Source: an uncultured bacterium (GTDB taxonomy: Bacteria > Desulfobacterota > BSN033 > UBA1163). From it: a DNA stretch of 37,712 nucleotides. Below are positions 1,917-20,570 of the stretch, one piece after another. Every line of letters begins with the position of its first letter. Within the stretch, counting starts at the first letter, position 1. The notes under the pieces are model-generated. The model made no database searches. It saw only the letters and a list, made by a program, of their open reading frames with translations, and was not told the origin of the DNA. A program made the translations under genes and the position numbers. The DNA is taken from positions 1-37,712 of the forward strand of contig CALIBK010000161.1 in NCBI GenBank assembly GCA_938045955.1, given 5' to 3'.

Positions 1917-2549
1917 ATGAAAGAGGAAAAGGTCTTTTTCCCATCCACAGGCTTTCAATTGGAAGGCCTCTTGAGTATTCAGGAGGCCTTTTCAAATAAA
2001 GGAGGCATTATTCTTTCCCATCCTCACTCCCTCTTTGGGGGGAATATGCATAACCATGTCATTGAGGTGGCCCTGGAAGTAGCCCATGAGACAGGATTTT
2101 CAACCCTTCGGTTTAATTTTCGGGGAGTAGGGAAGAGTGGCGGGGCCTATAGTGAAGGAATAGGAGAAAGAAATGATGTGGAGGCAGCGATTCAATTTCT
2201 TCAAACAAAAATGAATGACGAACATCTTCCTCTACTTTTCTTAGGATACTCTTTTGGAGCCTGGGTAGGTTTCCCGGTGGCTATCCGGGACGAACGGATT
2301 AAGGGCCTTATAGCGATCGCCCCACCCCTTCAGATGTTCGACTTTAATTCTTTGAAAGGTTGTAGAAAGAAAAAACTCATTATCGCGGGAAGCGAAGACC
2401 CGTGGTGCCCGAAATCTTTGCTGGACTCCTGGTATCAGGATTTAGAAGAGCCAAAATCTTTAAGCCTCATCCAGGGAGCAGACCACTTCTTTTTTTCTCA
2501 CGTCAGGTTAATTAAAGAACCCCTCTATAATTTCTTTAAAACCTTTTGA
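1917..2549 (+). CDS. Alpha/beta hydrolase
   Basis: 210 aa; nucleophile elbow GYSFGAW, HPHSLFGGNMHNHV, FNFRGVGKSGG, C-terminal D...GADHFF. Confidence 0.85.
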   Translation: MKEEKVFFPSTGFQLEGLLSIQEAFSNKGGIILSHPHSLFGGNMHNHVIEVALEVAHETGFSTLRFNFRGVGKSGGAYSEGIGERNDVEAAIQFLQTKMNDEHLPLLFLGYSFGAWVGFPVAIRDERIKGLIAIAPPLQMFDFNSLKGCRKKKLIIAGSEDPWCPKSLLDSWYQDLEEPKSLSLIQGADHFFFSHVRLIKEPLYNFFKTF

Positions 2550-3391
2550 ATCCTCCAACCTAATCGATGGAAAATAAGAATCCAGGGATAATAACGAAGG
2601 GCTCTCCTCATCTCTTCCAGGAATTTTAAATCACCACCTGAATAAGAATGAAGAAAACGAAGCCGATCTGTTCGTGAAATAGGAAGTCCGAAATCTTTCC
2701 ATTTATCTGCAGATCGGTTAAGGCGAAAAAGGTTTTTCACTCTCTCCTTTATGGTGAGGAATGCTTTTCGATAGGATCGATCGAAATCAATAATCAGAAC
2801 CTCATCCCCTGATACCAACAGATTTTTCAATTGTAAATCCCTATGGCAAAAACCAGCCTGATGGAATTTCTTAAGAAGAATTCCTGCCGATCGGATAACT
2901 TTTCGTTTATGAAGGATAGTCTGATGAGGAGGGTGAGATCCTACCCTTTCGAGATATTGGACCAGATTGAGGCTGTTCGGGAACTCCAAGGTAAGTAAAT
3001 AGGGTCGATAGAAAGGGGGAATAAGAACCTGGTGAACCGCAACAACAGGGGTGACCGTTGGAATCCCTGATGATCGAATCTCTTCGGTAAGAATCAACTC
3101 GTTAAAGGATCGTGCACCAGAGAGAAAAAGCCCTCTTGTAAAGAATCGAAGCAATCCTCCATGAGAATATCGGCGAATGACCACTCGTCTGTTTTCTTGA
3201 AATATAATGGTTGGATAACGTGTTCTTCCCTCGAAGTAATGGCGAGACTCTTTTTGGAGATAAAGAAGATTGTTTAGCTCTTTCTCGCTGTATTCAAGGA
3301 TTCTTGCCTTATAATCATCCTTTACGAGGAGATAGAGGCGTCCTTTTTTAATGAACGAGAAACCGGGGGGAGGGGATATTTTTTTTTGCAT
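2525..3391 (-). CDS. Kdo kinase / lipopolysaccharide kinase family (KdkA/WaaP-like)
   Basis: RRYSHGGLLRFF, kinase-like HRDLQLKNLLV and LIIDFDRS motifs. Confidence 0.75.
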   Translation of the reverse strand: MQKKISPPPGFSFIKKGRLYLLVKDDYKARILEYSEKELNNLLYLQKESRHYFEGRTRYPTIIFQENRRVVIRRYSHGGLLRFFTRGLFLSGARSFNELILTEEIRSSGIPTVTPVVAVHQVLIPPFYRPYLLTLEFPNSLNLVQYLERVGSHPPHQTILHKRKVIRSAGILLKKFHQAGFCHRDLQLKNLLVSGDEVLIIDFDRSYRKAFLTIKERVKNLFRLNRSADKWKDFGLPISRTDRLRFLHSYSGGDLKFLEEMRRALRYYPWILIFHRLGWRIQKVLKKL

Positions 3392-3520: not shown

Positions 3521-4972
3521 CTAATTTTTATCTTCTTTTTGAGTGGATGAAGATACTCTAAATCTTCTCCGGGTGGCTCTCTCCCAGGAATCCTTTCTAA
3601 AGACGAGTTGAAAGAGGGCTTGAAGTCTCCACCAGGCATTCAGTTGTCTATACCCTAAGTTTTCAAAAATTCCATAGAGCATAAGTCTGAGAACAGAGGT
3701 CCACCTTGGATATCTCCTGTAGGTAATCTCTTCGAGAAAGATGGCTCCGATTGAAAGAAAAATTCCGTAAAGTAAAGCAAGCAAGAGAAAGAGCCAGAAC
3801 ATTTCGACGTTGAGAATTTTGAAATAATAGGCCAGGGGAATAGCCACGTATCCCAAAAGTTCTACAACAGGGCCTAAAAGTTCGATGAAGAAAGTATAAG
3901 GCATCGCAAAAAGACCAATTCGACCGTATTTCGGGTTGAAGAACATCCGAATGTTTGAAATTAGTACCGTAGCCAGACCCCTCTGCCAGCGACGTCTCTG
4001 TCGGGCAAGCATCACATAACGGTTCGGGACCTGGGTCCAGGAGACAGGTTCAGGAATGAAAAGGATTTTATATTTTTCTTTTTTTTCTTTCATATGACGA
4101 TGAAGTCGAACGATCAATTCAAAGTCTTCCGTTACCGTTTGAAGGCTATATCCTCCCACTTCCTGGACGATTTTCTTTTTAAATAATGAGAAGGCCCCCG
4201 AAAGAATTAAAAGACAGTTTAAAGCACTCCACCCTGTCCTTCCAAAAAGAAAAGCGCGAAGATATTCCACCACCTGAAACATCAGGATGCTTTTCTTAGG
4301 GAGTTCGATTTTAGTTACCCGTCCGTGCTCTACCGTACAGCCATCCATCACTCGAACAATTCCTCCGCAGGAGACCACCTCCTCGGGATATTCAAGGATC
4401 GGTTTAATGAGTTTCAATAAGGCGTCCTTTTCGAGTACCGTATCTGCATCGACTGTGCAAAAATAAGGGCTCCGGCAAGCATTGATTCCAACGTTGAGAG
4501 AATCGGGTTTTCCACTCTTTGGTTTATCAATGACCATGAGGTTAGGAAACTCGGGACTGGTATAGAATCCTTTAACCGGGGTAGTGGGGGTAATCGGTCG
4601 GTAAATGAGGTCAACCTTTCGAAGACGGAAATGTTGGATCAATGTTTCGAGGGTTTCGTCGGTGGAGCCATCATTAATCACGATGACTTCATGAATTGGA
4701 TAATCCAGGTCTAAAAGGGATTCAACGGTATCCACAATGGTTAATTTTTCATTATTGGCAGGAACCAAAATGGATACCGGGGGAGTAAGGGGGGAGGAAG
4801 CAATTTCCTGGTAACCTGCGTATCGACTCCTAAAGAGTTGGTTCAGGGCAACCTTTGCTGAGACACTTAGGAGAATAAGATAAACGGTATTGGTAAAAGC
4901 AAAATAAAAAAGAACAAAGTAATTGAACCCAACGATCAGAGAGATCAGGAATTCGTCAGATATCCAGTCCAT
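3521..4972 (-). CDS. Membrane glycosyltransferase family 2, processive polysaccharide synthase type
   Basis: 483 aa with N- and C-terminal TM segments, VINDGSTDET, VDADT (DxD), TEDFEL (TED) and QRRRWQRG (QxxRW) motifs. Confidence 0.9.
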   Translation of the reverse strand: MDWISDEFLISLIVGFNYFVLFYFAFTNTVYLILLSVSAKVALNQLFRSRYAGYQEIASSPLTPPVSILVPANNEKLTIVDTVESLLDLDYPIHEVIVINDGSTDETLETLIQHFRLRKVDLIYRPITPTTPVKGFYTSPEFPNLMVIDKPKSGKPDSLNVGINACRSPYFCTVDADTVLEKDALLKLIKPILEYPEEVVSCGGIVRVMDGCTVEHGRVTKIELPKKSILMFQVVEYLRAFLFGRTGWSALNCLLILSGAFSLFKKKIVQEVGGYSLQTVTEDFELIVRLHRHMKEKKEKYKILFIPEPVSWTQVPNRYVMLARQRRRWQRGLATVLISNIRMFFNPKYGRIGLFAMPYTFFIELLGPVVELLGYVAIPLAYYFKILNVEMFWLFLLLALLYGIFLSIGAIFLEEITYRRYPRWTSVLRLMLYGIFENLGYRQLNAWWRLQALFQLVFRKDSWERATRRRFRVSSSTQKEDKN

Positions 4973-5005
4973 GGTGAATTCGGTTTCCTTCCGTTCTGAA
5001 AATTT

Positions 5006-6244
5006 TTATTCAAGATAATTCAGAATCTTTTTGATTTCAGCTCTGACCTTTTCAGAAGGATGAAAAAAGGAGGCATGCCTCATCAAACTTGTAACTTTTA
5101 ACTTCACTAAAGAGGAGAGAAATTGTTTACTCATCTCTGCCTTCTCATTTTCTGGATGCTCCAGAGCATCAATCAATTCGTCTACAATCCCGGATCGCTG
5201 CATCTCTTCAGCAATCTGCTCCCTTGCATAGCGGTCCTCTCCCTCCATTAGAATTTTGATTAAAGCAGAAAAAGCGGGAAATCCCATCTGGCGGAGACTT
5301 TCTGCAGCCGCAGCTCGAACCTGCCAGTTTTCGTCAGTAAGTCTCTGGCACAGAAAGTCAATGATTTTTCCATTTCCCATCCTCCCCAGGGCTCGACATA
5401 CCTGGAGCCGGACGAACCAGACTGGATCACTCCCTGACTCCAAAAGCGATGGGATCGCTGAGGGATCTCCAATTTTCCCTAAAGCCCTTGCCGCTTTTGC
5501 CCGGATTTCAGGATTAGGGTGAGTCAATTTTCGAATGAGGGCTTGAGAGGCTTTTGGGGTTCCTATCTCTCCAAGACACTCGATAAGAAGGGCTTGCATT
5601 TCTTCGTCGCACTCATCCATTTTTGAAAGAATGGCTGGAACCACTGACTCCCCAAGTTTAATGAGAGTGTTCTTCAGGGTAGAGGCAAAAACTCCCTCTT
5701 CCTCAGTTGTGATTCGAGGAAGCCATGTCATTAAAAGGGGAAATGCTTTTGGGTCGGGAATCCTCCCGAGGGATCTCAGGGCTACCGACCTCACCTCAAT
5801 TTCAGGATCCCTTAACGCCTCGAGGAGATGACGGGTAGAACTTTCACTTCCGATTCGACCCAATTTGTCTGCTGCCAGACTCCTTTGCCAGCGATTCCCT
5901 GACTTTAGCATCCTCTGATAAAAAGTGGGATATCCAAGTTTTTCAAGCAGTTTTGTAATTCGCATCTTATTTTGATTAGAAGCCGACTCCCGGGCTTTCA
6001 GCAAAAGGTCCTCAAGGGCCTGCCATTGAATCGATTTTTCGGGAAATTTTAATTCAGTGGAATTAATAGGGACTTTTCCTTCCAAAAACATATTTATCTT
6101 TTTTTTGAGTCGTTCCCTTTCTCTATCCAATCTCGAAAAATAGATACCTCTCAGGATTCTTCTTATCGTAATACCAAAGACGATAAGAAGAAGGATAGAA
6201 ATAGATGCCAAAATGGCAGACTTTAAAATAGACTCCAGATCCAT
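5006..6244 (-). CDS. Membrane-anchored HEAT-repeat protein
   Basis: N-terminal TM ILKSAILASISILLLIVFGITI then repeated HEAT/PBS units (SLGRIPDPKA, CLGEIGTPKAS, ALGKIGDPSA, ALGRMGNGKI). Confidence 0.9.
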   Translation of the reverse strand: MDLESILKSAILASISILLLIVFGITIRRILRGIYFSRLDRERERLKKKINMFLEGKVPINSTELKFPEKSIQWQALEDLLLKARESASNQNKMRITKLLEKLGYPTFYQRMLKSGNRWQRSLAADKLGRIGSESSTRHLLEALRDPEIEVRSVALRSLGRIPDPKAFPLLMTWLPRITTEEEGVFASTLKNTLIKLGESVVPAILSKMDECDEEMQALLIECLGEIGTPKASQALIRKLTHPNPEIRAKAARALGKIGDPSAIPSLLESGSDPVWFVRLQVCRALGRMGNGKIIDFLCQRLTDENWQVRAAAAESLRQMGFPAFSALIKILMEGEDRYAREQIAEEMQRSGIVDELIDALEHPENEKAEMSKQFLSSLVKLKVTSLMRHASFFHPSEKVRAEIKKILNYLE

Positions 6245-6345
6245 ATTTTGATATTAAAATTTATTATATTTTCCCTCCATCTTCAATCACTCTCAGAGAA
6301 GGATCAAGGGCCAAAGTATTTTCGGGGATGGTTGGTAGTTGGAAA

Positions 6346-6374
6346 TTGACAATGGATAGAGGTTATTATACTTT
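6346..6374 (+). promoter_or_regulatory. Candidate sigma70-type promoter for the TPR/GH-CE4-barrel operon
   Basis: TTGACA at 6346-6351; TACTTT at 6369-6374 (17-nt spacer) or TATACT at 6367-6372 (15-nt spacer), 31-39 nt upstream of ATG 6406. Confidence 0.35.
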
Positions 6375-6405
6375 TTATAAAAAATTTTTTTATTAACGAT
6401 AGACA

Positions 6406-8823
6406 ATGGAGAGGAATTTTAAAGATATAGGTTTTTTGGCTTTAAGGCAAGGGGATGAACAGGAGGCGATTAATCTCTTCCTGAAGGCTCTTGAGAGGGA
6501 AGGGGAGGCAAAAATTTATTACGGATTAGGATTGGCTTACCTTCGGCTAGGAAATATTCAAAAAGCAAGATGGGCTTTTCATAAAGCCGTGGAGATAGAA
6601 CCCGATTACAAAGAATCCATTTCCTCCCTGCAGTCCCTCAATCAAATGCAAGAGAGACCGGATCCTTGTTCCGTTTCTTCAAGGGTTCGTTTCAGGGTTT
6701 CTTCTGATTATTTAGAAATGGAAGAGGAGGAAAAGTGGAGTAAAATTTTTTTTAAAGGGATTAATTTAGGATTAGGACTACCAGGATATTTCCCGGGGGA
6801 ATTCCCGATTGAAAAAGGAACCTATCTGAAGTGGTTTGAAAAGATTTCTGAGCTTGGTGCCAATTCTATCCGAATCTATACTCTTCATCCCCCATCTTTT
6901 TATGAAGCCCTTTACCAATTTAACCAATCCAAACCAAGACTCTATCTCTTTCAGGGGATATGGGTGGAGTTGCCCGAAAAAAATGATTTTTATGAAGAGT
7001 CTTATCTTAAAGACGTAAGGGAGAGGATTCGGAATGCAATTGATGCGGTTTATGGAAATGCCTATCTTCCCGAAAGACCAGGATATCCTTCCGGGTCGTA
7101 CCGGTTTAATGTGTCCCCCTATGTAGTTGCCTTCATTTTTGGCAGGGAGTGGGAGTCCTGTAGTGTAAAGGGTTTTAATGAACTTCATCATCGGAGGAAA
7201 AGAAATTATTATGGGAAATTTTTATCTATTGAAGACGCTACCCCCTTCGAACTCTGGATTACAAAGATGTTAGATGATCTTCAATCCTATGAAGAAGGGA
7301 AATATAGTCATTCCCATCCAGTGAGTGTGGTCAACTGGCCAACCCTTGATCCACTGATGCATCCTACAGAATCTAACTACGAAGCGAATATGGAGTTTCA
7401 AGGAATTAAAGTTCACCAAACCATATGTCAAGAAAATGAGGATGAGGAGACCCTTGATCTTTCAAAAATCCACTCCCTAAAAGGGGGAGGATTTTTTGCC
7501 ACCTATCATGTGTATCCTTACTATCCTGATTTTATGGTTAATGAATTTCTTGATGAGGAAGATCCCTTCTTAGCCTACCTTCTCAAATTGAAAAGACATC
7601 ATGGGAGTCAACCTATTTTAATTGGAGAATTTGGAGTTCCGAGCAGTCGAGAAATCGCACACTGGCACCACCGGGGATGGCACCATGGAGGACACTCTGA
7701 AATAAAACAGGGACAGATTGATGGACGATTAATCAGGACTATTTTTGAGGCAAAAATGGCTGGGGGGATACTGTTTTCTTGGTTCGATGAATGGTTTAAA
7801 AAAAATTGGCTTTACCTTCCCTATTATCATCCTTCAGAGCGGAAATCTTTTTGGTATAATATTCAGGATGCAGAGGAAAACTATGGTCTTCTGGGAGCCT
7901 ATCCTGGATATCCCAAAAAAAAGGTGAATCTTTCCGGAAAAGAGGAAGAATGGATCAACAGTAGCATTCTCTATGAAAAAGATAGTGATCAGATGATATT
8001 TAAGTTTAATGATGGTTTTGATGAAACCCGATTATTAAAAAGGCTCAGGGTTCAACATGACGAAGGATTTCTTTATATTTTAATTGAAACCAAAGGGAAG
8101 GTCGATTTTACAAAGGCACATTACCTTATAGGACTTGATACCATTTCACCCGAAAGAGGGGAATTCAGACTCCCTCTGAAGACTAATGTACTGCTCCCGA
8201 TAGGAATTGAGTTTTTAATCCACCTTGCTGGAAAAGAGAACAGCAGAATTCTCATTTGCAAAGAGTATGATAAATATTTAAATAAAGAGCGAGGAGAGAT
8301 TAAACCCGCTATGGGTGATCAGGGAGAATGGGTCCTCATCCAAAACAAGAGCAATATCAGGCGAGTGAGCAAAGATGGAACGAGATTCTTTCCTCCAAGA
8401 GTAAATTGCGTCTCCCTCTTGAAATACGGAAGTCTGGATCCCCTTCATCGTGCATACGATACACTTGCTGATTTTTATTTTGAAGAGAATCGAATCGAGA
8501 TACGTCTTCCCTGGGCTCTTTTACACTTTACCGATCCAAGTTCCAAATGGGTTCTGTGGAAGGATAAGGACCATTTATGTCAAAAAACTGAAGGTCTTCA
8601 TATTCTTATATTCTCTTATCTCCCCGAGAAGGGTCAACTTTATGCCAGAAAGACGGGTCTCGGAATCAATATTACGGATTCGTTCCCACAAAAACTTGAG
8701 CGTGATGAGATAAAGAGATATACCTGGGAAAATTGGCAAACCCCCATCTATCATACTTATTTGAAAGCGAGTTATTTCATTTATCAAAAGGCTCTAAAAC
8801 AGATTCCGGAGGGAATTGAGTGA
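6406..8823 (+). CDS. TPR domain + glycoside-hydrolase-like TIM-barrel protein
   Basis: 805 aa; N-terminal TPR (AIYYGLGLAYLRLGNIQKARWAFHKAVEIEPDY-like); GH-like FKGINLG..., GANSIRIYTLHPP, FGREWES and LIGEFGVPS. In-frame TAG immediately upstream of the ATG. Confidence 0.7.
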   Translation: MERNFKDIGFLALRQGDEQEAINLFLKALEREGEAKIYYGLGLAYLRLGNIQKARWAFHKAVEIEPDYKESISSLQSLNQMQERPDPCSVSSRVRFRVSSDYLEMEEEEKWSKIFFKGINLGLGLPGYFPGEFPIEKGTYLKWFEKISELGANSIRIYTLHPPSFYEALYQFNQSKPRLYLFQGIWVELPEKNDFYEESYLKDVRERIRNAIDAVYGNAYLPERPGYPSGSYRFNVSPYVVAFIFGREWESCSVKGFNELHHRRKRNYYGKFLSIEDATPFELWITKMLDDLQSYEEGKYSHSHPVSVVNWPTLDPLMHPTESNYEANMEFQGIKVHQTICQENEDEETLDLSKIHSLKGGGFFATYHVYPYYPDFMVNEFLDEEDPFLAYLLKLKRHHGSQPILIGEFGVPSSREIAHWHHRGWHHGGHSEIKQGQIDGRLIRTIFEAKMAGGILFSWFDEWFKKNWLYLPYYHPSERKSFWYNIQDAEENYGLLGAYPGYPKKKVNLSGKEEEWINSSILYEKDSDQMIFKFNDGFDETRLLKRLRVQHDEGFLYILIETKGKVDFTKAHYLIGLDTISPERGEFRLPLKTNVLLPIGIEFLIHLAGKENSRILICKEYDKYLNKERGEIKPAMGDQGEWVLIQNKSNIRRVSKDGTRFFPPRVNCVSLLKYGSLDPLHRAYDTLADFYFEENRIEIRLPWALLHFTDPSSKWVLWKDKDHLCQKTEGLHILIFSYLPEKGQLYARKTGLGINITDSFPQKLERDEIKRYTWENWQTPIYHTYLKASYFIYQKALKQIPEGIE

Positions 8824-9596
8824 GAATAACGAGAAGAGAATTTTTAAAGATCAGTGGAGGAGCCCTCTTTTTATCTCACTGGATAGGAGGAGAGGGATGG
8901 GGGAATACCTCAAAGATTCCCGTGCTTCTCTATCATGATATTTCAGAGACCTTTAGAGATGATTATACGGTATCGCCCGGGCAATTTGCAGCCCAGATGG
9001 AATGGCTCTACGAGGAGGGGTACCAAACCCTTTTTCTCAACGAGATCACCTCATTAAAGGAAAATGAATACAGGAAAGTTATCCTTCTCACCTTTGATGA
9101 TGGATATGCCTCTTTTTTGGATTTTGCTTTTCCATTGCTTCAGGTCTACCAGTTTAAAGCTACAATTAATTTTATTGGAGGGGAGGTCGGAAAATTTATT
9201 CATCTTGGTGGAAATAGGCCCACTATGAGCTGGGATGAATATCGTTACCTTCTTAAAAGTGGATTGGTGGATCTGGGTTGCCATACCTATCATCTTCATT
9301 TTAAAAGCGGGGTCTTATCCTTTTCGGAGGATACATTAAGAAGGGATTTAAAGTTGTTTCAAGAAGAAGCCCAACATCGGATTGGAAGAACATTAGAAAT
9401 CCTTTCATGGCCTTATGGAATCTTTAACGATAGGAGTATTCGAATAGCAAAAGGGCTCGGGTTCAAATATTTTTTAACTTCCAAAGAGGGATTTTTTAAA
9501 AGGGCCTCAGGAATTGAGACTATTCCCCGTCTCAATATCAATTATCGGCTTGATCTTATTTCATTTAGACATTATATCGAAAGGGAAGAGATATGA
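8820..9596 (+). CDS. Polysaccharide deacetylase (NodB/CE4-like) with Tat signal
   Basis: GTG start at 8820 overlapping the previous stop; TRREFLK twin-arginine motif; LLYHDI, LLTFDDGYAS, HTYHLH and SWPYG motifs. Confidence 0.9.
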   Translation: MRITRREFLKISGGALFLSHWIGGEGWGNTSKIPVLLYHDISETFRDDYTVSPGQFAAQMEWLYEEGYQTLFLNEITSLKENEYRKVILLTFDDGYASFLDFAFPLLQVYQFKATINFIGGEVGKFIHLGGNRPTMSWDEYRYLLKSGLVDLGCHTYHLHFKSGVLSFSEDTLRRDLKLFQEEAQHRIGRTLEILSWPYGIFNDRSIRIAKGLGFKYFLTSKEGFFKRASGIETIPRLNINYRLDLISFRHYIEREEI

Positions 9597-11173
9597 AGAA
9601 GAAGTTTATGATTTCAGGAATAATATTTTTGGTGCTGGCGTCCGTCTGTTTTTCAGTGACTCCGGAAGAACTGATCAAAGAAGGGAGATACGAGGAGGCG
9701 ATCAAAGCCTACCGGATATCCCTTTCCAGTTCTCGAAACGATAAAGAGAAGGCGAGACTCCATAAAGCGATAGGGGAAATTCTTGCCTCGAAGGGAGATT
9801 ATAAAGGGGCAGGAAAAGAGTATCTGAAGGCTCTTTCTCTGGACCGGATGGGTTTTACTGAAAACGAAAGATTTCGGATGGCCATTCACCTTTCCTGGGG
9901 GAACTATCTGAAAGAGGCCGTTGAGGAATTGTCAGATATCGTTAAAAATAATCCTGGTCATCTGGAAGCAAGGATTCATCTCGCCAGGTCTCTTTCCTGG
10001 GCAGGGAGATTGAAAGAATCCCTAAAAGAAGTCGAGCATATCCTGAGAGTAAGTCCAGAAAATAGAGATGCCTTATTCATCCAGGCAAATATTTTGAGAT
10101 GGAGAGGCAATCTTCATCAGGCCATCGCAATTTATAGAAATTTATTAGAAACAAAGGAAGACTTTGATATTCGGTTAGGGTTAACCTATGCCTTGTTGAA
10201 AAAGGGGGATAGGAAAGGAGCTCAGGAAAGTTTCCATCTCTTAAAACCCGTCTATCCCTATCAAGAGAGAGAGTTGAAAAAACTTGAGGAAGAAATTGTG
10301 AGAATGACACGACCTTCCATGGGTGGGACTTATCAATTCTATAAGGATTCGGATGATAATCAACTCAATCGATTTTCTGTCTCAGGAGGAGGATGGATCG
10401 ATCCTGTAAGAGTTGATCTCCTTTTCAGGCATACAGATGCAAGAGATGACGAAAGACATCACCGGAGCGAAGAGTTCTCTTTAAGGAGTTATTTGAAGAT
10501 CTTGGAGCCATTAACCATGGGAGGAGGAGCGGGAGTGACTCAACTCGCCCATAAAGAGACGGATCATTATTTTACTGGAAACCTCTTTGCCACTCTTGAT
10601 CTTCTTCGGGGGTTTTTAGGTGGAAGCATCAGCCGGAACGTCCTTGTAGATAATGCTCAGCTAATAGAAAATAGAATTCGGGTCACTGAGGGAGGGATCT
10701 ATGGAAGCCAGAACCTGACTGACTCTCTTTCTCTCCATGGAAGCTATTTTTACAGAGATTATTCCGATAAGAATCATTCCCATGATTTTCAACTGATCCC
10801 CAGATATGTCGTGTATCGAGGAAATCCGAGAACCTCCCTGGGTTATCGATGGAGATATCTCAATTTCGATAAACACACAAAAAGTGGATACTTTGACCCG
10901 AAGAATTTCATGTCCCATCAGGCATTATTATCTATCGATTATGAGAAAGCCCCTTTTTTCATCTTTTTAGAACCTTACATCGGGTACCAGTCCTTTAAGA
11001 GATACGGGGAGAGGGACCGAGATGTTATTCTTGGGGGAGCGGGGATACTCCGATGTCGAGTTTCAAAAAATATTGATGCGGAAGGAAGTGTAGAGGGGGG
11101 AAATTATGCCCTGGGAGCTGTTTCAGGGTTCAACTATTTTCAGATCTCATTTGGATTGAGGATTTACTTTTAG
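9593..11173 (+). CDS. TPR-containing YaiO-like outer-membrane beta-barrel protein
   Basis: Signal peptide, several TPR repeats, then alternating beta-strand C-terminal half ending ISFGLRIYF. ATGA overlap with the previous gene. Confidence 0.8.
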   Translation: MKKKFMISGIIFLVLASVCFSVTPEELIKEGRYEEAIKAYRISLSSSRNDKEKARLHKAIGEILASKGDYKGAGKEYLKALSLDRMGFTENERFRMAIHLSWGNYLKEAVEELSDIVKNNPGHLEARIHLARSLSWAGRLKESLKEVEHILRVSPENRDALFIQANILRWRGNLHQAIAIYRNLLETKEDFDIRLGLTYALLKKGDRKGAQESFHLLKPVYPYQERELKKLEEEIVRMTRPSMGGTYQFYKDSDDNQLNRFSVSGGGWIDPVRVDLLFRHTDARDDERHHRSEEFSLRSYLKILEPLTMGGGAGVTQLAHKETDHYFTGNLFATLDLLRGFLGGSISRNVLVDNAQLIENRIRVTEGGIYGSQNLTDSLSLHGSYFYRDYSDKNHSHDFQLIPRYVVYRGNPRTSLGYRWRYLNFDKHTKSGYFDPKNFMSHQALLSIDYEKAPFFIFLEPYIGYQSFKRYGERDRDVILGGAGILRCRVSKNIDAEGSVEGGNYALGAVSGFNYFQISFGLRIYF

Positions 11174-11337
11174 CTTAAATTGAGCGATTCTCAGTATTAT
11201 TTAAAGATAAACCCATACTGGATTCCCGTTTTTACCGAAATGACATTTTCATTCATTGGGGGTCGTCGTCATTTTTGCAAAAGCAGGAATCCAGTATCTT
11301 TAATTCAATTCGTGACGAAAAATCTTTCAGTTTTAGG
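11174..11337. repeat. MITE-like dispersed repeat, copy 2 (~164 bp)
   Basis: CTTAAATTGAGCGATTCTCAGTATTATTTAAAGATAA...TTTTAGG, alignable end to end with 243-404; flanked by TTTAG at 11169-11173 and 11338-11342. Confidence 0.85.
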
Positions 11338-11382
11338 TTTAGGATAATGTTAATTTAAAGGATATCCCGGGAGGAATAATTC

Positions 11383-12822
11383 ATGGAATACGAACCTGTG
11401 ATTGGATTGGAAGTTCATGCCCAGCTTTTAACACGGTCCAAAATCTTCTGTGGGTGTTCAACGAGTTTTGGAGAGGAACCCAACACCCAGACCTGTCCGG
11501 TCTGCACGGGACAACCTGGATCCCTTCCGGTCGTGAATCGCAAAGCAGTCGAATTTGCTATTCGCCTGGGACTGGCCACCCACTGTCGAATCGCTCCTTT
11601 CAGTCTCTTTGCCCGAAAGAATTATTTTTATCCCGATCTCCCCAAAGGATATCAGATCTCCATGTATGAGCATCCCCTGGCAGAGAATGGGTTCATTGAA
11701 ATTACCGTGAATGGAATAAAGAAGAGGATACGAATTATTCGGATCCATATGGAAGAGGATGCAGGGAAGTTGAAACATGGAGAGACTCCGGAGAAGTTTC
11801 CTTATAGCTATGTTGACTTTAATCGAACCGGGGTTCCCCTCGTTGAGATTGTGAGTGGACCGGACATCCGTTCCCCTCAGGAGGCAGGGGAGTATTTGAG
11901 AAGGCTAAGGGCCATTCTTCAGTACCTTGAGATCTGCACCGGAGATATGGAAAAAGGAACATTTCGATGCGATGCAAACGTTTCTGTTCGCCCCGTTGGC
12001 CAGAAGGAATTCGGAACCCGGACTGAATTGAAGAATATGAATTCCTTCAAACATGTAGAAAAAGCGTTAGAATACGAGATTAAGCGGCAGATCGAACTTC
12101 TCAGGTCAGGTGAGGAGGTCATCCAGGAGACGAGACTTTTTGATGCCAATACAGGGATGACAGTCTCCATGAGGGGAAAAGAGGAAGCCCATGACTATCG
12201 CTATTTTCCGGACCCGGATCTCGTCCCCCTTAGAATCGATGAACGGTGGATAGAAGAGATAAGAGCAGGCCTCCCGGAACTTCCGGATCAGAAGAAGGAG
12301 AGGTTTATCCAACAGTATCAGATCCCTGAATACGACGCGGAGATTCTTACATCGAGCAAAGCGATGGCCAAATACTTTGAGGAAACGGTAGCATTGTTCC
12401 CTGAACCAAAGGTCGTCAGTAACTGGATGATGGTGGAGCTTCTCAGGGAATTAAAGAGAGATGAAAGGGAGATTGACCAATGTCCCATTACCCCAAGACA
12501 TCTGGCAGGAATGCTTATCCTTATTAAGAATGGGACGATCAGCGGTAAGATTGCCAAGGATGTGTTTGAGGAGATGTATCGAACAGGAGAAGAGGCTGAA
12601 AAGATTGTGAAGGAGAGAGGTTGGGTTCAAATCCTCGATCGAGGAGAGATTGAAAGGGCCATCGAACAGGTTATCGAGGCTTATACCAAGCAGGTGGACG
12701 AATACCGAAAGGGGAAGGAGAAGATTTTCGGGTTTTTGGTGGGGGAGGTGATGAAGAAAACCAGAGGAAAAGCAAACCCCCAGTTGGTGAACGAACTTCT
12801 GAAAAAGAAATTGAAAGAATAG
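11383..12822 (+). CDS. gatB: Aspartyl/glutamyl-tRNA(Asn/Gln) amidotransferase subunit B
   Basis: [68 protein letters not shown] upstream. Confidence 0.98.
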
Positions 12823-12847
12823 GAAAAAAGCATGGAGCCTGTCGGTT

Positions 12848-13885
12848 ATGAATTTTAAGACGATTGAGTGGAGAGGGGATCATATCAGGATTCTGGACCA
12901 GAGGAGACTTCCTCTTCAGGTTCGCTATCTGGTCTGTGAGAATGCCTCCTCGGTTGCGCGAGCCATAAAAAGCATGGCTATTCGAGGGGCTCCGGCCATT
13001 GGAGTGGCAGCGGCTATGGGAATAGCCATAGGTGCGAAAAAAATAAGGATCGATCACCCGGAAAGATTTAAACAGGAGATGGAGAAGATTTTTCAACAGA
13101 TGGCTCAGACTCGGCCGACTGCGGTCAACCTGTTCTGGGCTATTGAAAGAATGAAAAGGGTATTTGAGGAATCATCCCGGGATATAAAGAGGGCAAAAGT
13201 AAGACTGGAAGAGGAGGCTTTAAAAATCTATAAGGAGGACTTAGAGATCAATCGGACAATAGGGGAGGTTGGAAAGAGACTCATTCAGGATGGTTCAGGA
13301 ATTCTAACCCATTGCAACGCAGGGGCGTTAGCTACGGCAGGTTATGGGACTGCACTCAGTCTGATTTATGCAGCGTGGGAGGAAGGGAAGAAATTTCATG
13401 TTTATGTCGATGAGACTCGTCCTATGCTTCAGGGAGCAAGACTCACCGCCTGGGAACTTTCCCAAGCCCACATCCCCTTGACAGTGATCACGGATAATAT
13501 GGCTGGTTGGCTGATGAAAGAAGGAAAGATAGACTTAATTCTTGTCGGAGCAGATCGAATCGCCAGAAATGGGGATACGGCTAATAAGATTGGGACCTAT
13601 AGTTTAGCCGTGCTTGCGAGGTATCATCGGATTCCCTTCTATGTGATCGCTCCTACTTCCACCATTGACTGGAAACTTCCCCGTGGAGAGACCATTCCTA
13701 TTGAAAAAAGAGGGGGAGAAGAGGTCACCCATATCGGGTCGAAAAGAGTTGCTCCCGAGGGGGTGGAGGTTTATAACCCCGCTTTTGATATAACCCCTAA
13801 CCAATTAATCCAGGCGATTGTTACGGAAAAAGGAATCCTATACAGGCCTTTTCAGGAGAGTTTAAAAAGAATTCAGACCTCATGA
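12848..13885 (+). CDS. mtnA: S-methyl-5-thioribose-1-phosphate isomerase
   Basis: AIRGAPAIGVAAAMG, LTHCNAGALATAGYGTAL, VDETRPMLQGARLTAWEL, VGADRIARNGDTANKIGTY. Confidence 0.97.
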   Translation: MNFKTIEWRGDHIRILDQRRLPLQVRYLVCENASSVARAIKSMAIRGAPAIGVAAAMGIAIGAKKIRIDHPERFKQEMEKIFQQMAQTRPTAVNLFWAIERMKRVFEESSRDIKRAKVRLEEEALKIYKEDLEINRTIGEVGKRLIQDGSGILTHCNAGALATAGYGTALSLIYAAWEEGKKFHVYVDETRPMLQGARLTAWELSQAHIPLTVITDNMAGWLMKEGKIDLILVGADRIARNGDTANKIGTYSLAVLARYHRIPFYVIAPTSTIDWKLPRGETIPIEKRGGEEVTHIGSKRVAPEGVEVYNPAFDITPNQLIQAIVTEKGILYRPFQESLKRIQTS

Positions 13886-14676: not shown

Positions 14677-15818
14677 TGGTTTCGAAAAAAGCACAGGAGA
14701 TCCCTCCCTTTATCGTGATGGATGTGCTTGAGAGAGCCCAGGAATTTGAGAGAGCAGGGGAGAGGGTCATTCATCTGGAGGTTGGAGAACCGGATTTCAC
14801 CACGCCTGAATGTATCAGTGAAGCGGGATATCGTGCCATCTGCGAGGGAAAGACCCATTACACCCATAGTATGGGGATTATCGAATTGAGGGAGGCCATT
14901 TCCGAGGATTACTGGAAAAACTATCGGGTGAAGGTCTCTCCAGAGCAGATTATTATTACTTCCGGGACCTCCCCGGCGATGTTTCTTCTCTTCTCTGCTC
15001 TCCTGGACCCGGGGGATGAGGTCATTCTTCCCAATCCTTATTATCCCTGTTATCCCAATATCATTCGATTCGTGGACGGGGTTCCAGTTTTTGTGGAGGT
15101 CTTTGAAGAGGAAGGGTTCCAGTATCTCCCTGAGATGATTCGCGAGAAGATGGGTCCCAGGGTGAAAGGGATTATGATTAACTCACCTTCCAACCCTACG
15201 GGAAATATAATGTCTGAAGAGAGGATGAGAGAAATTTCTGAATTCTCCCCCTATATCATCTCTGATGAGATTTACCATGGGCTGGTCTATGAGGGAGAAG
15301 CCCATTCGATCCTTGAATTTACGGATCGAGCGTTTGTCATCAATGGGTTTTCTAAACTTTATGCGATGACGGGATGGCGATTGGGGTATCTCATTGCCCC
15401 CAGGGAGTTTATCCGGCCCATGCAGAAGATTCAGCAAAACCTCTTCATCTCGGCCAGTTCTTTTTCACAATGGGCTGCCCTTGCGGGGTTGAAAGAGGGA
15501 GAGGAAGAGGTCAGAAGAATGCGCGAGACCTATGATCAGCGGAGACGATACCTGATTCCAAAATTGAAAGAACTCGGGTTCGGGATCAGGGTAGAACCTA
15601 CCGGGGCTTTCTATGTCCTTGCGAATGCAAAGAGGTTTTCTTCCAACTCCTATCGCCTGGCCTTTGATATTCTGGAGAAAGCAAAAGTAGGGGTGGCTCC
15701 AGGGATCGATTTCGGATCCAATGCAGAAGGGTATTTACGATTCTGTTATGCTAATTCCATGGAGAATCTCATCGAAGGGATGAATCGTCTGGAGGCCTAC
15801 TTAAAGCAGTATTATTAA
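14676..15818 (+). CDS. Class I/II pyridoxal-phosphate aminotransferase
   Basis: HLEVGEPDFTTPE, NSPSNPTGN, ISDEIYHGLVYEG, NGFSKLYAMTGWRLGY. Confidence 0.95.
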   Translation: MVSKKAQEIPPFIVMDVLERAQEFERAGERVIHLEVGEPDFTTPECISEAGYRAICEGKTHYTHSMGIIELREAISEDYWKNYRVKVSPEQIIITSGTSPAMFLLFSALLDPGDEVILPNPYYPCYPNIIRFVDGVPVFVEVFEEEGFQYLPEMIREKMGPRVKGIMINSPSNPTGNIMSEERMREISEFSPYIISDEIYHGLVYEGEAHSILEFTDRAFVINGFSKLYAMTGWRLGYLIAPREFIRPMQKIQQNLFISASSFSQWAALAGLKEGEEEVRRMRETYDQRRRYLIPKLKELGFGIRVEPTGAFYVLANAKRFSSNSYRLAFDILEKAKVGVAPGIDFGSNAEGYLRFCYANSMENLIEGMNRLEAYLKQYY

Positions 15819-16480
15819 AACCCTATTTCACGGGAGAGTTGGTGGGCTTTCCTTAAAGGTTCGGGCATTCGATATCCACGACAGGCATTGAGAATGACCT
15901 GGATGCTGGTTTCTAAATCGATTCGATGACCGGGAGAGATAAAAACAGGTTTCACTCTATCTTTGGTTCGAAGGATAGCTCCAACCTTTCTATCTCCAAT
16001 CCAAACCCATTGAATACTTCCTCGTAAAAGAGCTGGAGATTGAAACTGCCTCACCAGAGGGCTCTTCGCACATCCAATCGTGGGAAGATCCAGCCAGAGC
16101 CCCAAATGGGAAGCCAGCCCAAGCCCTCTCGGGTGAGCGATTCCGTGACCCTCAAAAATCATCAGGTCGGGCTTTGTTCTCAATTTCTTAAAAGCCTTTA
16201 AAAGGACCGGACCTTCCCGAAAGGCAAAGAGACCGGGAATATAAGGAAAGGAGATCTTCCCCCAGGCTTTAGCCGCGTCAATCAGTGTTAGCCCCGGGTA
16301 AGAAAAAACAGCAATTGCTCCGGACAGAATATCCTTCTCTTTTGAATAAGAGACATCTCCCCCTCCGATGGTTTCCAATTTCGAGAATGAGTTTTTAAGG
16401 AGAAGTTTGCTTCTCAATCGATTCTGAATCTCGATCGCTTGCTCAACGTTTACCTTCCAGGAATGAAGAGGAAGTCTCAT
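15815..16480 (-). CDS. nfi: Deoxyribonuclease V (endonuclease V)
   Basis: GGGDVSY, PYIPGLFAFREGP, MIFEGHGIAHPRGLGLASHLGLWLDLPTIGCAKSPL. Confidence 0.95.
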   Translation of the reverse strand: MRLPLHSWKVNVEQAIEIQNRLRSKLLLKNSFSKLETIGGGDVSYSKEKDILSGAIAVFSYPGLTLIDAAKAWGKISFPYIPGLFAFREGPVLLKAFKKLRTKPDLMIFEGHGIAHPRGLGLASHLGLWLDLPTIGCAKSPLVRQFQSPALLRGSIQWVWIGDRKVGAILRTKDRVKPVFISPGHRIDLETSIQVILNACRGYRMPEPLRKAHQLSREIGF

Positions 16481-16488
16481 CTTAAATC

Positions 16489-18228
16489 TTATGATCGGGG
16501 GAGGGGTTCGATCTTCCCATTCTTTACTCTGAAGAGAGTTAGTGTTCGGACCGATGTCCCGTTTTCTGAAAAACCCGTTAGCCCAGAGACCCCCTGGTAG
16601 TTGGAGATGTTTAAAAGGGCTTCCTTTATTTCCAGAGGAGAAGAGATGGATCTGGATTGAAGGATTTCGAACAGAAGTTTTGCACCATCATAGCAGATGG
16701 CCTCCAGGGTTTCGGGATTTCGTCGATACTCTTTCTGAAATCTCTCTACAAAAGATTTTACCTTTGGAGCCCCTGAGGGGAAGGCATCAACAAAGATTGC
16801 TCCCTCCGCTCCCGTCCCTCCGATCGAGAGAAGACCTGGACCATTCCAGGTGTTGACTCCTAAAAAAGTGATTCCTTTGATTCCGTGCATTTTTATCTGG
16901 GCCAGAATGGTTCCCACCCGGTGATGGGAGTCAGGGATAAAGAGGGCCTCTTTGTTTGAAATATATCGAGCCTTAAGGAACCCCTGAATCTCCTGTTGAA
17001 AGTCGGTTTGATCCTCTTGATAGATAAGTATCCCTGAAATTTTTCCCCCCAATCGACTCACTTCCTGTTTAAAAAGATTTTTGAAATATACGCCAAAAGG
17101 GGAGTTAGGATAGAGGATGCGGAAGGTTTGGAGTCCCAATTCTTTGATTGCAAAGGAGGCCAGGGTTTGAACCTGTTCCAGAGGAGTGATTGAGTTTTGA
17201 AAGACAAAGTCCCGTTTCTCCATGGAAACCTCTTTTTGAGAAAAACTGACCATGGGCACCTTAAGTTGTTGGGCTTTTTTTGCTGCTCCCTCCAGATTAA
17301 TACTTAATAGAGGACCCAGAATGACCATCACTTTTTCTCCTTTAATCAGATCCTCTATCGCCCTCTCAGCTTCCTTAGGATCTCCCCTGGAGTCTCGAAG
17401 AATGAGGGAGAACATCTCTTCTCTTGAGTTCTTCTCTTTAAAGGCAAACTGGATGGCCTGCCATGCCCTCTCTCCAAAGGATTTAGAAGAACCGCTGAGA
17501 GGAAGGAGAATTCCGATGGAGTATTTTGCCCTGGTTCGAAAAGGAATCTCTTCGGAGAGTTCTTTTGCCTGAATCCAGTAGTCCATTGCTGGATACTCTC
17601 TTCCGATTTCACCCAATATCCTCTGGGCACGAATGGAATTCCCTCGGTCCTTCTCCATCTTTGCCCATCGAAGTTTTGCATAACCTCCCACATAAGCTCC
17701 TCGAAAGGCCGTTTCGATACGGTTCAGTTCCTCTTCACTCTCTATTGCGTCGATCAATTCACGGATCTTCTTTTTTAACTCATCATGAGATCGTCCGGGG
17801 ATGAAGAGCCCCTTTCCATACCAATGGAGGGCCTGAAGTCGATCTTTCAATATAGAATAATTATCTCCAAGAAGGGTGAAGATCTGAATCATTCGGTCGG
17901 ATTGAGGAAGTCCAGAGAGGAGGTCTTTTAGGATGGGAATGGCATCGTGGGGGCGCTTCAGATGGGTGTAACATATTCCCATTCGGAATCTGGATTCCTC
18001 CAAGAGAGGGCTCCGGGGATATTTACGGATCAATTGTTGAAATCGCCAGAGGGCTTTTTGAAAGTCGCCTTTTTCGAAGAGTCTTTCTCCTTCCCTGAAA
18101 AGGTCTACCTCCTCAGGGGAAGGAGATTGAGACCAGGCGAAATATAAGCCATGAACGAAGAGGAGGGAGAAAAGAATAAAAAGGTAGGGAAGCTTTCTTT
18201 TTTCTTTAAGGGTGGATGGGAGTAACAT
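16489..18228 (-). CDS. TPR + periplasmic-binding (Peripla_BP_6/LpoA-like) protein
   Basis: Start moved from 18366 to ATG 18228, giving a signal peptide (KLPYLFILFSLLFVHGLYFAWS); TPR units, then IGILLPLSGSSKSFGERAWQ... Confidence 0.8.
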   Translation of the reverse strand: MLLPSTLKEKRKLPYLFILFSLLFVHGLYFAWSQSPSPEEVDLFREGERLFEKGDFQKALWRFQQLIRKYPRSPLLEESRFRMGICYTHLKRPHDAIPILKDLLSGLPQSDRMIQIFTLLGDNYSILKDRLQALHWYGKGLFIPGRSHDELKKKIRELIDAIESEEELNRIETAFRGAYVGGYAKLRWAKMEKDRGNSIRAQRILGEIGREYPAMDYWIQAKELSEEIPFRTRAKYSIGILLPLSGSSKSFGERAWQAIQFAFKEKNSREEMFSLILRDSRGDPKEAERAIEDLIKGEKVMVILGPLLSINLEGAAKKAQQLKVPMVSFSQKEVSMEKRDFVFQNSITPLEQVQTLASFAIKELGLQTFRILYPNSPFGVYFKNLFKQEVSRLGGKISGILIYQEDQTDFQQEIQGFLKARYISNKEALFIPDSHHRVGTILAQIKMHGIKGITFLGVNTWNGPGLLSIGGTGAEGAIFVDAFPSGAPKVKSFVERFQKEYRRNPETLEAICYDGAKLLFEILQSRSISSPLEIKEALLNISNYQGVSGLTGFSENGTSVRTLTLFRVKNGKIEPLPRS

Positions 18229-18739
18229 AATAGATTTCGGGAAGATGTCGGTAGCACTCCTCCACATCGATGCCATAACCCACAACAAAGACATCCTCAA
18301 TGGCTTTTCCCAGGTAATCTGGTTCGATCGAGACCTCCCTCCTTGCTTTTTTATCAAGCAGAGCACAGACCTTCACGGAGTTCGGACGCGAGAGGGAGAG
18401 CCGATCCTTCAGAAATTTCAAGGTATGACCGCTATCAATAATATCCTCAATAATGAGGACTTCTTTGCCTTCGATCGAAACCTCGATGTCTTTGGTGATT
18501 TCCACCTGTCCCGAACTCCTCATCTGACTCCCGTAGCTTGATAATCTCACAAAATCGATTTTTACAGGAATCCGAAGGTGGCGGATCAAATCCGAAAGAA
18601 ACATAAAGGCCCCTTTTAAAATACAGATCAGAATCAATTCCTTTCCCCGATAATCTTTCGAAATTTGATCCGCCAGTCGCTCCACGATAGATTCGATCTC
18701 TTCACGGGAAATCAAGGGATGAAGTTGATATTTCTCCAT
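18206..18739 (-). CDS. hpt: Hypoxanthine phosphoribosyltransferase
   Basis: LILICILKGAFMFLSDLIRHL, VLIIEDIIDSGHTL (PRPP motif), VGYGIDVEECYRHLPEIY. Confidence 0.97.
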   Translation of the reverse strand: MEKYQLHPLISREEIESIVERLADQISKDYRGKELILICILKGAFMFLSDLIRHLRIPVKIDFVRLSSYGSQMRSSGQVEITKDIEVSIEGKEVLIIEDIIDSGHTLKFLKDRLSLSRPNSVKVCALLDKKARREVSIEPDYLGKAIEDVFVVGYGIDVEECYRHLPEIYYVTPIHP

Positions 18740-18744
18740 AAATT

Positions 18745-19401
18745 TTAAAGGGCGTGCTCCAGGACGACAATCTCCATCTGGGACGGAAGACTCTTTTTGT
18801 CAAAAGAGATTTCATTCGTCCCTGGCCGTTTAATATGGGTCTTTCCTTTCAGAAAGTCTTCCACGGGAGAGATGGGAAATCCGCATTTGGAGGTTTTAAA
18901 ATGCATTGGAATGACTACCTTAGGTTTAATCTGTTGAGCTACCTCGGTTGCCTCTCTGGCATCAATGGTAAAGAATCCTCCTACCGGGAGAAAAAGGATA
19001 TCCACGGGGCCAATCTCTACCACTTCTTTTTCGCCCAATCGGTGGCCGAGATCCCCCAGGTGGCAAAGTTGCATTTCATCGACTGAAAGCACGAAGATTG
19101 TGTTTTCTCCACGTTCCTTCCCTCTGGAAGGATCATGATAGGTCGAAATCCCTTTAATGGGAATTCCCTTAACGTTTTTTGGACCACTTCCTTTGACGAT
19201 CTGAGGAGAACCCGGTAGGCTCTTGGTGTCGTTGTGATCCGCATGGTCATGACTCGTAAGCACGATATCTGCTTCATCTTTGATCTTCCCATAGGCCAGT
19301 TGGCCTCCATAGGCCCCGGATTCATAAGGATCAAAGATAATCTTTATCCCTTGCTCTGTAGTGACTAAAAATGAAGCATGTCCGTACCATTTGATTTTCA
19401 T
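18745..19401 (-). CDS. Metallo-beta-lactamase-fold hydrolase (UPF0173-like)
   Basis: IKWYGHASFLV, LTSHDHADHND, LCHLGDLGH, PMHFKTSKCG. Confidence 0.9.
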   Translation of the reverse strand: MKIKWYGHASFLVTTEQGIKIIFDPYESGAYGGQLAYGKIKDEADIVLTSHDHADHNDTKSLPGSPQIVKGSGPKNVKGIPIKGISTYHDPSRGKERGENTIFVLSVDEMQLCHLGDLGHRLGEKEVVEIGPVDILFLPVGGFFTIDAREATEVAQQIKPKVVIPMHFKTSKCGFPISPVEDFLKGKTHIKRPGTNEISFDKKSLPSQMEIVVLEHAL

Positions 19402-19449
19402 AGAGACCTCCTTTCCAGGCTTTTCCCCAAATGGCCAAGAAAATTTTTT

Positions 19450-19755
19450 CTATCTTTTCCTCAATTTTGCCTCCACGGCTTTTTTCTTCCCTTCAATCGT
19501 TCCCTTCTTGTCCCTTCGGTCATCAATTTTTATGGTGGTGAGGACTCGAAGAGCTCCCTTTTTAAAAGGAACTTCATGCATCTTGGAAGCGATGGATAAG
19601 AGCTTTTTTAAATCTCCTTCGATATTGGTCCCCATTGAAGTCAGTTCAAAGGGGATGTTCTCCCTTTTTAACACCTTGATACATTCAGCCACATACTCAC
19701 TCAAACTTGTCCCGGACGTTCCGATGGGGACGACACTGATTTCTAAGATGGCCAT
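19450..19755 (-). CDS. MTH1187/UPF0045-family putative thiamine-binding protein
   Basis: Start moved to ATG 19755: MAILEISVVPIGTSGTSLSEYVAECI...FELTSMGTNIEGDL. Confidence 0.85.
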   Translation of the reverse strand: MAILEISVVPIGTSGTSLSEYVAECIKVLKRENIPFELTSMGTNIEGDLKKLLSIASKMHEVPFKKGALRVLTTIKIDDRRDKKGTIEGKKKAVEAKLRKR

Positions 19756-19844
19756 CGATATCCTCCCTGGGTTAGGATTTAACCCATTTTTATCACTGAA
19801 ACAGGCTCTTGTCAATGACCAGATAAATATATTAATATGGTTTT

Positions 19845-20570
19845 ATGAATCAGCCTCAAGAAGTATCTGGTCTGATCGCTTTTTCTGCTGGATTTCTTTC
19901 ATTTATTTCTCCCTGCGTCCTTCCTCTGTTTCCCTCCTATCTGACCTATATCACCGGGATCTCCTTTAAAGAGCTCTCTGAACCACAGGGAAGGAAGTTA
20001 AGAGGGATGACCATTCTCCATTCTCTTCTTTTCATCATGGGCTTCTCTTCGGTATTTATTCTGATGGGTGCCTCGGCGACCTATTTAGGGCAGATTCTGG
20101 CAAGCTATCAAGAGTGGATCATGAAGGCTGGAGGAATTCTCATCATCATCCTGGGAATCCATTTCACAGGACTGATTCAGATTCCTTTCCTCCAGATGGA
20201 GAAAAGATTTGAGTTGAGAAAAAAACCCTTGGGTTTTTTAGGCTCCTTTCTGGTCGGAGTGGTCTTTGCGACGGGATGGACTCCCTGCATCGGTCCGATT
20301 CTTTCGACCATTCTGATCTATGCGAGTACCTCCCAGAAGTTTTCGACGGGTATTCTCCTTCTTACCCTTTATTCAATGGGATTAGGAGTTCCCTTCCTTC
20401 TTTCTTCATTAGCTTTCAATTCTTTCCTTTTTGCCTTTGAGTGGATAAAACGTTATATGCGGGTCATTACCCTGATCAGTGGAATATTTCTGATCCTTGT
20501 TGGAACTCTGATTCTTACAGATGCTTTCCGATCCCTCAGCTATTACTTCTATCAACTCTCCAGTCCTTAA
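19845..20570 (+). CDS. ccdA: Cytochrome c biogenesis protein CcdA
   Basis: AFSAGFLSFISPCVLPLFPSYLTYITG, FATGWTPCIGPILS, YSMGLGVPFLL. Confidence 0.95.
   Translation: MNQPQEVSGLIAFSAGFLSFISPCVLPLFPSYLTYITGISFKELSEPQGRKLRGMTILHSLLFIMGFSSVFILMGASATYLGQILASYQEWIMKAGGILIIILGIHFTGLIQIPFLQMEKRFELRKKPLGFLGSFLVGVVFATGWTPCIGPILSTILIYASTSQKFSTGILLLTLYSMGLGVPFLLSSLAFNSFLFAFEWIKRYMRVITLISGIFLILVGTLILTDAFRSLSYYFYQLSSP

Follow-up and report, generated by a model that had tools for sequence, protein, structure and literature searches.

A probable PNAG-like exopolysaccharide gene cluster with a HEAT-repeat partner protein and a separate TPR-glycosidase in an uncultured member of the Desulfobacterota

The window analysed here is a stretch of 37,712 nucleotides (contig CALIBK010000161.1, assembly GCA_938045955.1) from an uncultured bacterium of the Desulfobacterota, and it contains five genes that an initial annotation, made from the letters alone, had proposed as an atypical exopolysaccharide system. 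The open reading frame (ORF) map and direct reading of the sequence agreed with that annotation on the genes and their coordinates, on the gap from which two transcription units diverge, and on the overlaps between the plus-strand genes: GTGA at 8820-8823 (TPR-glycosidase and deacetylase genes) and ATGA at 9593-9596 (deacetylase and outer-membrane protein genes). In order to characterize this cluster, its gene content, homology, motifs, predicted folds and co-occurrence were computed. The features of the cluster are:

3521-4972, minus strand: GT2 polysaccharide synthase, PgaC/IcaA-like, 483 aa, processive motifs intact (Pfam GT2, E 3.8e-22)
5006-6244, minus strand: HEAT-repeat protein with one N-terminal transmembrane (TM) helix, 412 aa (Pfam HEAT_2, E 2.6e-44)
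6245-6405, no strand: intergenic gap on either side of which the two transcription units diverge (ORF map)
6406-8823, plus strand: TPR-glycosidase (TPR-GH), signal peptide absent, 805 aa (Pfam TPR, E 5.6e-9)
8820-9596, plus strand: CE4 polysaccharide deacetylase, PgaB/IcaB-like, with a twin-arginine translocation (Tat) signal, 258 aa (Pfam Polysacc_deac_1, E 3.4e-19)
9593-11173, plus strand: outer-membrane export protein (OMP) of the PgaA/BcsC/PelB type, 526 aa (Pfam TPR match)

The GT2 protein carries the motifs of processive synthases recognized in the initial annotation, located at D101, D175xD177, TED 281-283 and Q325xxR328W329, and these catalytic residues were near-invariant across 65 relatives of its clade. 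The combination of a GT2 domain, TM helices and the D, DxD, TED and QxxRW motifs is that of synthase-dependent polysaccharide systems. Of the glycosyltransferases of E. coli used for comparison, PgaC scored highest (103 bits, 25%), and the best NCBIfam model was the PgaC/IcaA model TIGR03937, with 119 bits against a cut-off of 422. A quick maximum-likelihood tree placed the GT2 proteins of this and related clusters in one group (Shimodaira-Hasegawa-like approximate likelihood ratio test, 99), which lies apart from E. coli PgaC, BcsA, OpgH, ArnC, YfdH and WcaA and has members in Bacillota, Acidobacteriota, Gemmatimonadota, Nitrospirota, Thermodesulfobacteriota and Halobacteria. NfrB was placed inside this group on a very long branch, a position taken as an artefact; the long E. 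coli branches (NfrB, BcsA and OpgH) are badly placed in this tree. The grouping with lipid-directed transferases that would have spoken against the initial annotation was not observed, the protein being separate from ArnC and YfdH and nearest to PgaC. Judging from the homologies, GT2 would most likely polymerise and translocate a hexosamine polymer.

The HEAT protein has, as had been noted, a single N-terminal TM helix, which is followed by a basic stretch, and therefore its repeats should be cytoplasmic. Its last repeats are conserved (W276, R279, D304 and R310). Using a hidden Markov model built from the genes of these loci themselves (initial detection relied on the window HEAT protein alone), a HEAT gene was found immediately upstream and on the same strand of 66 of the 71 clade GT2 genes, and only two HEAT matches occurred elsewhere in the studied loci. 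The five GT2 genes without an adjacent HEAT gene look like the result of a contig end (locus L173), over-long ORFs (L058, L079 and L170) and an inserted ORF (L059, at 7411-8817, separating HEAT from GT2). In L060, a close relative of L059, another inserted ORF, transposase-like by eye, splits the OMP gene (12471-13676). Profile comparison of the HEAT protein with PgaD gave 0.3%, indicating that the two are unrelated, and no published link between HEAT repeats and a polysaccharide synthase operon was found in the literature searched, which left most subscription journals out of scope.

The distribution of the genes was determined by scanning species-level genomes with a glycosidase profile. More than 583 relatives were returned, and the 80 best of them were examined further. 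Many matches confined to TPRs were left out of account. Loci with at least 6 kb of flank on both sides of the glycosidase gene were considered as full-context loci (n=61). In this set, whose counts are biased toward Bacilli and toward the 80 best glycosidase matches, GT2 and HEAT genes lay no more than 8 kb from the glycosidase gene in 49 of 61 loci, from several bacterial phyla and Halobacteria, and a receiver domain (REC) was present in 41. In 23 genomes no strong GT2 was seen beside the glycosidase; a clade GT2 is present elsewhere in 17 of these, and in 16 of the 17 a HEAT gene lies upstream of it, in most cases itself preceded by a receiver domain. The co-location on which the initial annotation depended was therefore recovered.

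Gene order differed between lineages. In the clade of the window (Thermodesulfobacteriota, Nitrospirota, Abyssobacteria and others), the order HEAT-GT2-GH-CE4-OMP (GH, glycoside hydrolase) was found on one strand in 15 loci, two of them from same-family relatives and 13 from others. The window contains the same set with the HEAT-GT2 pair inverted, and this divergent arrangement is special to the window genome within its clade. The order was [Hpt-REC-GGDEF]-HEAT-GT2-GH-[REC]-[hybrid kinase] in Bacilli and CE4-GH-OMP-REC-HEAT-GT2 in Geothrix; in Halovivax, GH, GT2, HEAT and REC are spread over about 9 kb; and plasmid pRadio2 of Deinococcus radiophilus carries TPR-HEAT-GT, so named in its public annotation. 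A replicon of Paenibacillus cellulosilyticus (L194) has a tandem pair of glycosidase homologues ahead of HEAT-GT2, in a region that carries no annotation (7815-13118). The clade GT2 was found in 16 of the 297 genomes sampled from the phylum of the window. Since three of these 16 (L167-L169) carry HEAT-GT2-OMP with neither GH nor CE4, HEAT-GT2 is the core unit; the OMP is the Gram-negative exporter, and GH and CE4, both present in every complete locus of the five-gene type, are a paired cassette. Small proteins follow the OMP gene in L167 (11883-12374, 163 aa) and L168 (12395-12934, 179 aa), with weak phosphatase/sulfur-transferase-like matches.

In the 805-residue TPR-GH, the middle and C-terminal parts were unmatched in Pfam and NCBIfam. 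Since a sequence search against the PDB gave essentially TPR matches and no glycosidase, a fold search was required. The AlphaFold2 model, built with 59 homologues (predicted local distance difference test, pLDDT, 94.3), contained about two TPRs (residues 5-80), a (beta/alpha)8 barrel (about 110-500) and a beta-rich C-terminal domain (about 510-780), which bore out the TIM-barrel glycosidase-like protein of the initial annotation. Its top Foldseek matches in the PDB were GH157 (E 5e-14, identity only 11-12%), followed by GH2 beta-glucuronidases, and the closest solved fold to its catalytic part is LaGH157, solved with laminaribiose. The likeness to GH157 is one of fold only, no GH157 match being obtained in the sequence searches. 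Residue E248 (conserved in 58/59) follows barrel strand 4 and E408 (59/59) ends strand 7, as do the acid/base and nucleophile glutamates of clan GH-A (the 4/7 superfamily). Because of this arrangement in the model, TPR-GH is likely to be an active clan GH-A enzyme. A relationship to the PgaB hydrolase was considered and rejected (profile comparison, 0.2%), so that TPR-GH, like the HEAT protein, is foreign to PgaABCD, as had been suggested. Seven loci of the same phylum (L038, L039, L040, L041, L042, L044 and L045) contain ORFs of about 415-490 aa with the first half of the barrel (residues 94-321, E about 1e-9 to 1e-13), several of them beginning with a signal-peptide-like stretch. In Bacilli, a well conserved N-terminal domain of about 390 aa (WSGWIGR, EFNTFASPT; e.g., L109:8801-10000) is fused to the glycosidase. 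It was unmatched in Pfam, NCBIfam and the PDB, and the idea of a hidden CE4 was discarded, since the TFDDG and paired histidine motifs are absent.

No signal peptide was found in the window TPR-GH, and a hydrophobic N-terminal segment was present in none of the 18 proteins of its clade versus 57 of 71 elsewhere. In relatives such as L059 and L068 the gene already starts before GT2 has ended, which makes it unlikely that a signal peptide was overlooked. The periplasmic trimming by TPR-GH that had been proposed is thus not supported, the export signal being absent in this lineage. The same observations favour a cytoplasmic TPR-GH that does not act on exported polymer, for instance one that binds HEAT-GT2 and serves it as a TPR scaffold or sensor. 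We regard this explanation as less likely than not. The barrel and its catalytic glutamates are conserved in secreted and unsigned forms alike. Co-export, moreover, would fit the Tat signal encoded by the adjacent, overlapping CE4 gene and the Tat/lipobox-like segment with which the glycosidase of Halobacteria opens. The window TPR-GH may thus travel out together with the Tat-exported CE4, or it may work inside the cell.

The N-terminus of CE4, MRITRREFLK, is the twin-arginine signal that had been pointed out. The strict Tat pattern was found in 13 of 18 CE4 relatives, the remaining five being close variants with two arginines, and the window genome holds two tatC genes. The TFDDG motif and the paired histidines H155/H160 are invariant, and the metal and catalytic residues intact. 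Comparison with the deacetylase domain of PgaB gave an hhalign probability of 99.5% (E 8.5e-23), and the NCBIfam PgaB score was 121 against a cut-off of 322.

In the AlphaFold2 model of OMP (pLDDT 93.2), TPR helices are followed by 16 strands. This agrees with the TPR outer-membrane barrel of the initial annotation, whose YaiO-like label had to be abandoned: hhalign gave 0.6% with YaiO, and PgaA was matched instead, across both TPR and barrel (95.8%, E 7.9e-9). The five best PDB matches were three BcsC entries, 4y25, which we take to be PgaA, and PelBC; the NCBIfam PgaA score was 35 against a cut-off of 367. The cluster therefore includes a TPR outer-membrane exporter of the sort found in synthase-dependent systems. 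The TPR domain of PgaA binds PgaB and raises both PgaB activities (PMC9384988), which suggests a natural role for the OMP TPRs with CE4.

The parallel with PgaABCD was stronger than first thought. The two systems share a PgaC-like synthase with a membrane-anchored partner beside it, a deacetylase with the D-H-H site of PgaB, and an OMP with the TPRs and 16-strand barrel of PgaA. They differ in that the window partner is a one-TM HEAT protein instead of PgaD (no PgaD-like ORF was seen within the cluster), in that the hydrolase is a separate TPR and clan GH-A protein unrelated to the PgaB C-terminal domain, in that CE4 is a stand-alone Tat substrate whereas PgaB fuses deacetylase and hydrolase, and in NCBIfam scores far under the cut-offs for poly-N-acetylglucosamine (PNAG). 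IcaADBC resembles the cluster in its IcaA-like GT2, stand-alone IcaB-like deacetylase and non-PgaD accessory protein; to our knowledge, it lacks a HEAT protein, a glycosidase and an outer-membrane protein. BcsABZC (cellulose) and PelA-G share the same-fold TPR and barrel exporter and a GH in the operon, but we know of no HEAT protein in them, and their synthases belong, as far as we know, to different families or subfamilies and their hydrolases are different. YaiO-YaiP-YaiS of E. coli likewise combines a GT2, a deacetylase and a small outer-membrane barrel, but the window OMP is not YaiO-like, YaiS gave no CE4 match, and HEAT is absent. As to the parallel with NfrAB that had been drawn, the combination of a GT2 and a large TPR outer-membrane protein stands for NfrAB-YbcH, a c-di-GMP-controlled synthase system of E. 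coli (PMC8669469), but an NfrB-type GT2 does not, the similarity being remote (E 0.003); HEAT, CE4 and a clan GH-A partner are not annotated at that locus. The synthases of PNAG and of polysaccharide intercellular adhesin depend on an accessory protein in the membrane, and between PgaD and IcaD there is no homology (PMC7112194). By analogy, HEAT would be a third accessory answer, unrelated to both.

Taken together, the cluster very probably makes, de-acetylates and exports a sugar polymer, and it is probably a PNAG-like synthase-dependent exopolysaccharide system with two replaced parts. We infer polymer formation, the substrate, the function of HEAT and the place and action of the glycosidase as follows. 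GT2 would polymerise a UDP-sugar, most likely UDP-N-acetylglucosamine (UDP-GlcNAc), passing the chain across the membrane by a channel of its own. HEAT would be an obligate partner that takes the place of PgaD or IcaD, its cytoplasmic repeats stabilising or switching GT2. The association of HEAT with receiver domains suggests phosphorelay control, and the likeliest switch would be control of the synthase through HEAT by the receiver-domain protein encoded alongside in many relatives. GGDEF and PilZ genes are present in the window genome, none of them inside the cluster; in the Bacilli clusters GGDEF is joined to REC. As the chain emerges in the periplasm, the Tat-exported CE4 would de-acetylate it, and OMP, with its TPRs and 16-strand barrel, would convey it across the outer membrane. 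TPR-GH may cut or edit the polymer, anchored or exported in most relatives and, in the window, either exiting alongside CE4 or working in the cytoplasm. We tentatively propose that each lineage supplies a glycosidase, a deacetylase and an exporter of its own, and that the product may be a GlcNAc-containing polymer not yet described.

Several observations weigh against this interpretation. No receiver-domain gene lies beside the HEAT-GT2 pair of the window itself. CE4 is absent from Bacilli and most other relatives, and thus deacetylation is not general. The three NCBIfam scores given above are so far under their cut-offs that the polymer need not be PNAG, and a UDP-sugar dehydrogenase encoded in Brevibacillus operons suggests that, in these at least, the polymer contains a uronate. 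In addition, no published experiments on any member were found.

A simpler explanation would be a divergent pgaABCD operon and nothing more, making a beta-1,6-GlcNAc polymer, with HEAT as a PgaD analogue and TPR-GH as an analogue of the PgaB hydrolase. The homology of CE4 and OMP to PgaB and PgaA and the proximity of GT2 to PgaC fit this explanation, as do GlmS and GlmU in operons of relatives and the pga-like clusters without detectable pgaB or pgaD described in environmental bacteria by Bundalovic-Torma et al. (PMC7112194). The latter may overlap with the present group and are the nearest prior remark on it. We nevertheless consider a divergent pga operon rather unlikely, since every NCBIfam PNAG cut-off was missed widely, GT2 falls in its own clade, HEAT and the GH show no homology to PgaD and the hydrolase of PgaB, and the Brevibacillus dehydrogenase is at odds with a GlcNAc homopolymer. 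Because several PNAG-defining features that were tested did not hold, the HEAT-partnered cluster was filed as a variant of synthase-dependent systems and not as a PNAG member.

That dehydrogenase also bears on the idea of a co-polymer of N-acetylhexosamine and uronic acid, hyaluronan-like in logic and partly de-N-acetylated in the lineage of the window. In five Brevibacillus loci (L106, L107, L129, L131 and L135; about 15,560-20,500), with the order GH-HEAT-GT2-REC-UDP-sugar dehydrogenase-GlmS-GlmU, the gene follows GT2 and REC and precedes those for GlmS and a GlmU-like nucleotidyltransferase. These operons are a candidate for a hexosamine/uronate polymer, judging from their gene content. The dehydrogenase also occurs in Paenibacillus L116, and GH2 beta-glucuronidases are the nearest folds to TPR-GH after GH157. 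A co-polymer is an unlikely explanation: here the dehydrogenase is restricted to one Paenibacillaceae group and absent from the window, and substrate is not deducible from fold likeness across clan GH-A. GlmS and GlmU genes also adjoin the glycosidase gene of the archaeon Salinadaptatus (L093), so that the Brevibacillus and Salinadaptatus clusters are independent pointers to UDP-GlcNAc.

It is very improbable that GT2 is a non-processive, lipid-directed transferase for a surface glycolipid, with OMP and CE4 serving another process, as might be read from the WaaP/Kdo-kinase-like gene directly downstream of GT2 on the same strand (2525-3391, minus strand), since GT2 has the full set of processive motifs and is separate from ArnC/YfdH, OMP is of the polymer-export class and in 15 or more other loci belongs to the same gene run as GT2, and the WaaP-like gene is not beside GT2 in relatives. 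The WaaP-like gene was also rejected as a sixth part of the cluster, being beside GT2 in no relative examined; in the Gemmatimonadota locus L074 it adjoins a trpE-like gene instead. Elsewhere in the window, a tRNA-Arg(CCG) gene (1484-1560) covers the mechanical start of ORF 1499-1906, whose true start is therefore further downstream. A promoter search of the 6245-6405 gap gave one site versus 1.8 by chance; this is no excess and is uninformative.

Synthase-dependent polysaccharides make up a large share of the biofilm matrix, and the accessory designs in known systems are few (PgaD, IcaD, BcsB and PilZ). As a PNAG-like system with two replaced parts, the cluster would add to them a HEAT protein kept beside the synthase over several phyla and archaea, often with receiver domains, which would be a new and testable mode of synthase switching. 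It also flags the culturable genera Geothrix, Brevibacillus, Neobacillus, Priestia, Deinococcus, Thermus and Halovivax, together with many environmental genomes, as probable producers of an unrecognised polymer. Finally, it offers a case of module exchange, as if the deacetylase and hydrolase that form one protein in PgaB had been rebuilt here as two overlapping genes, with the hydrolase taken from a different family.

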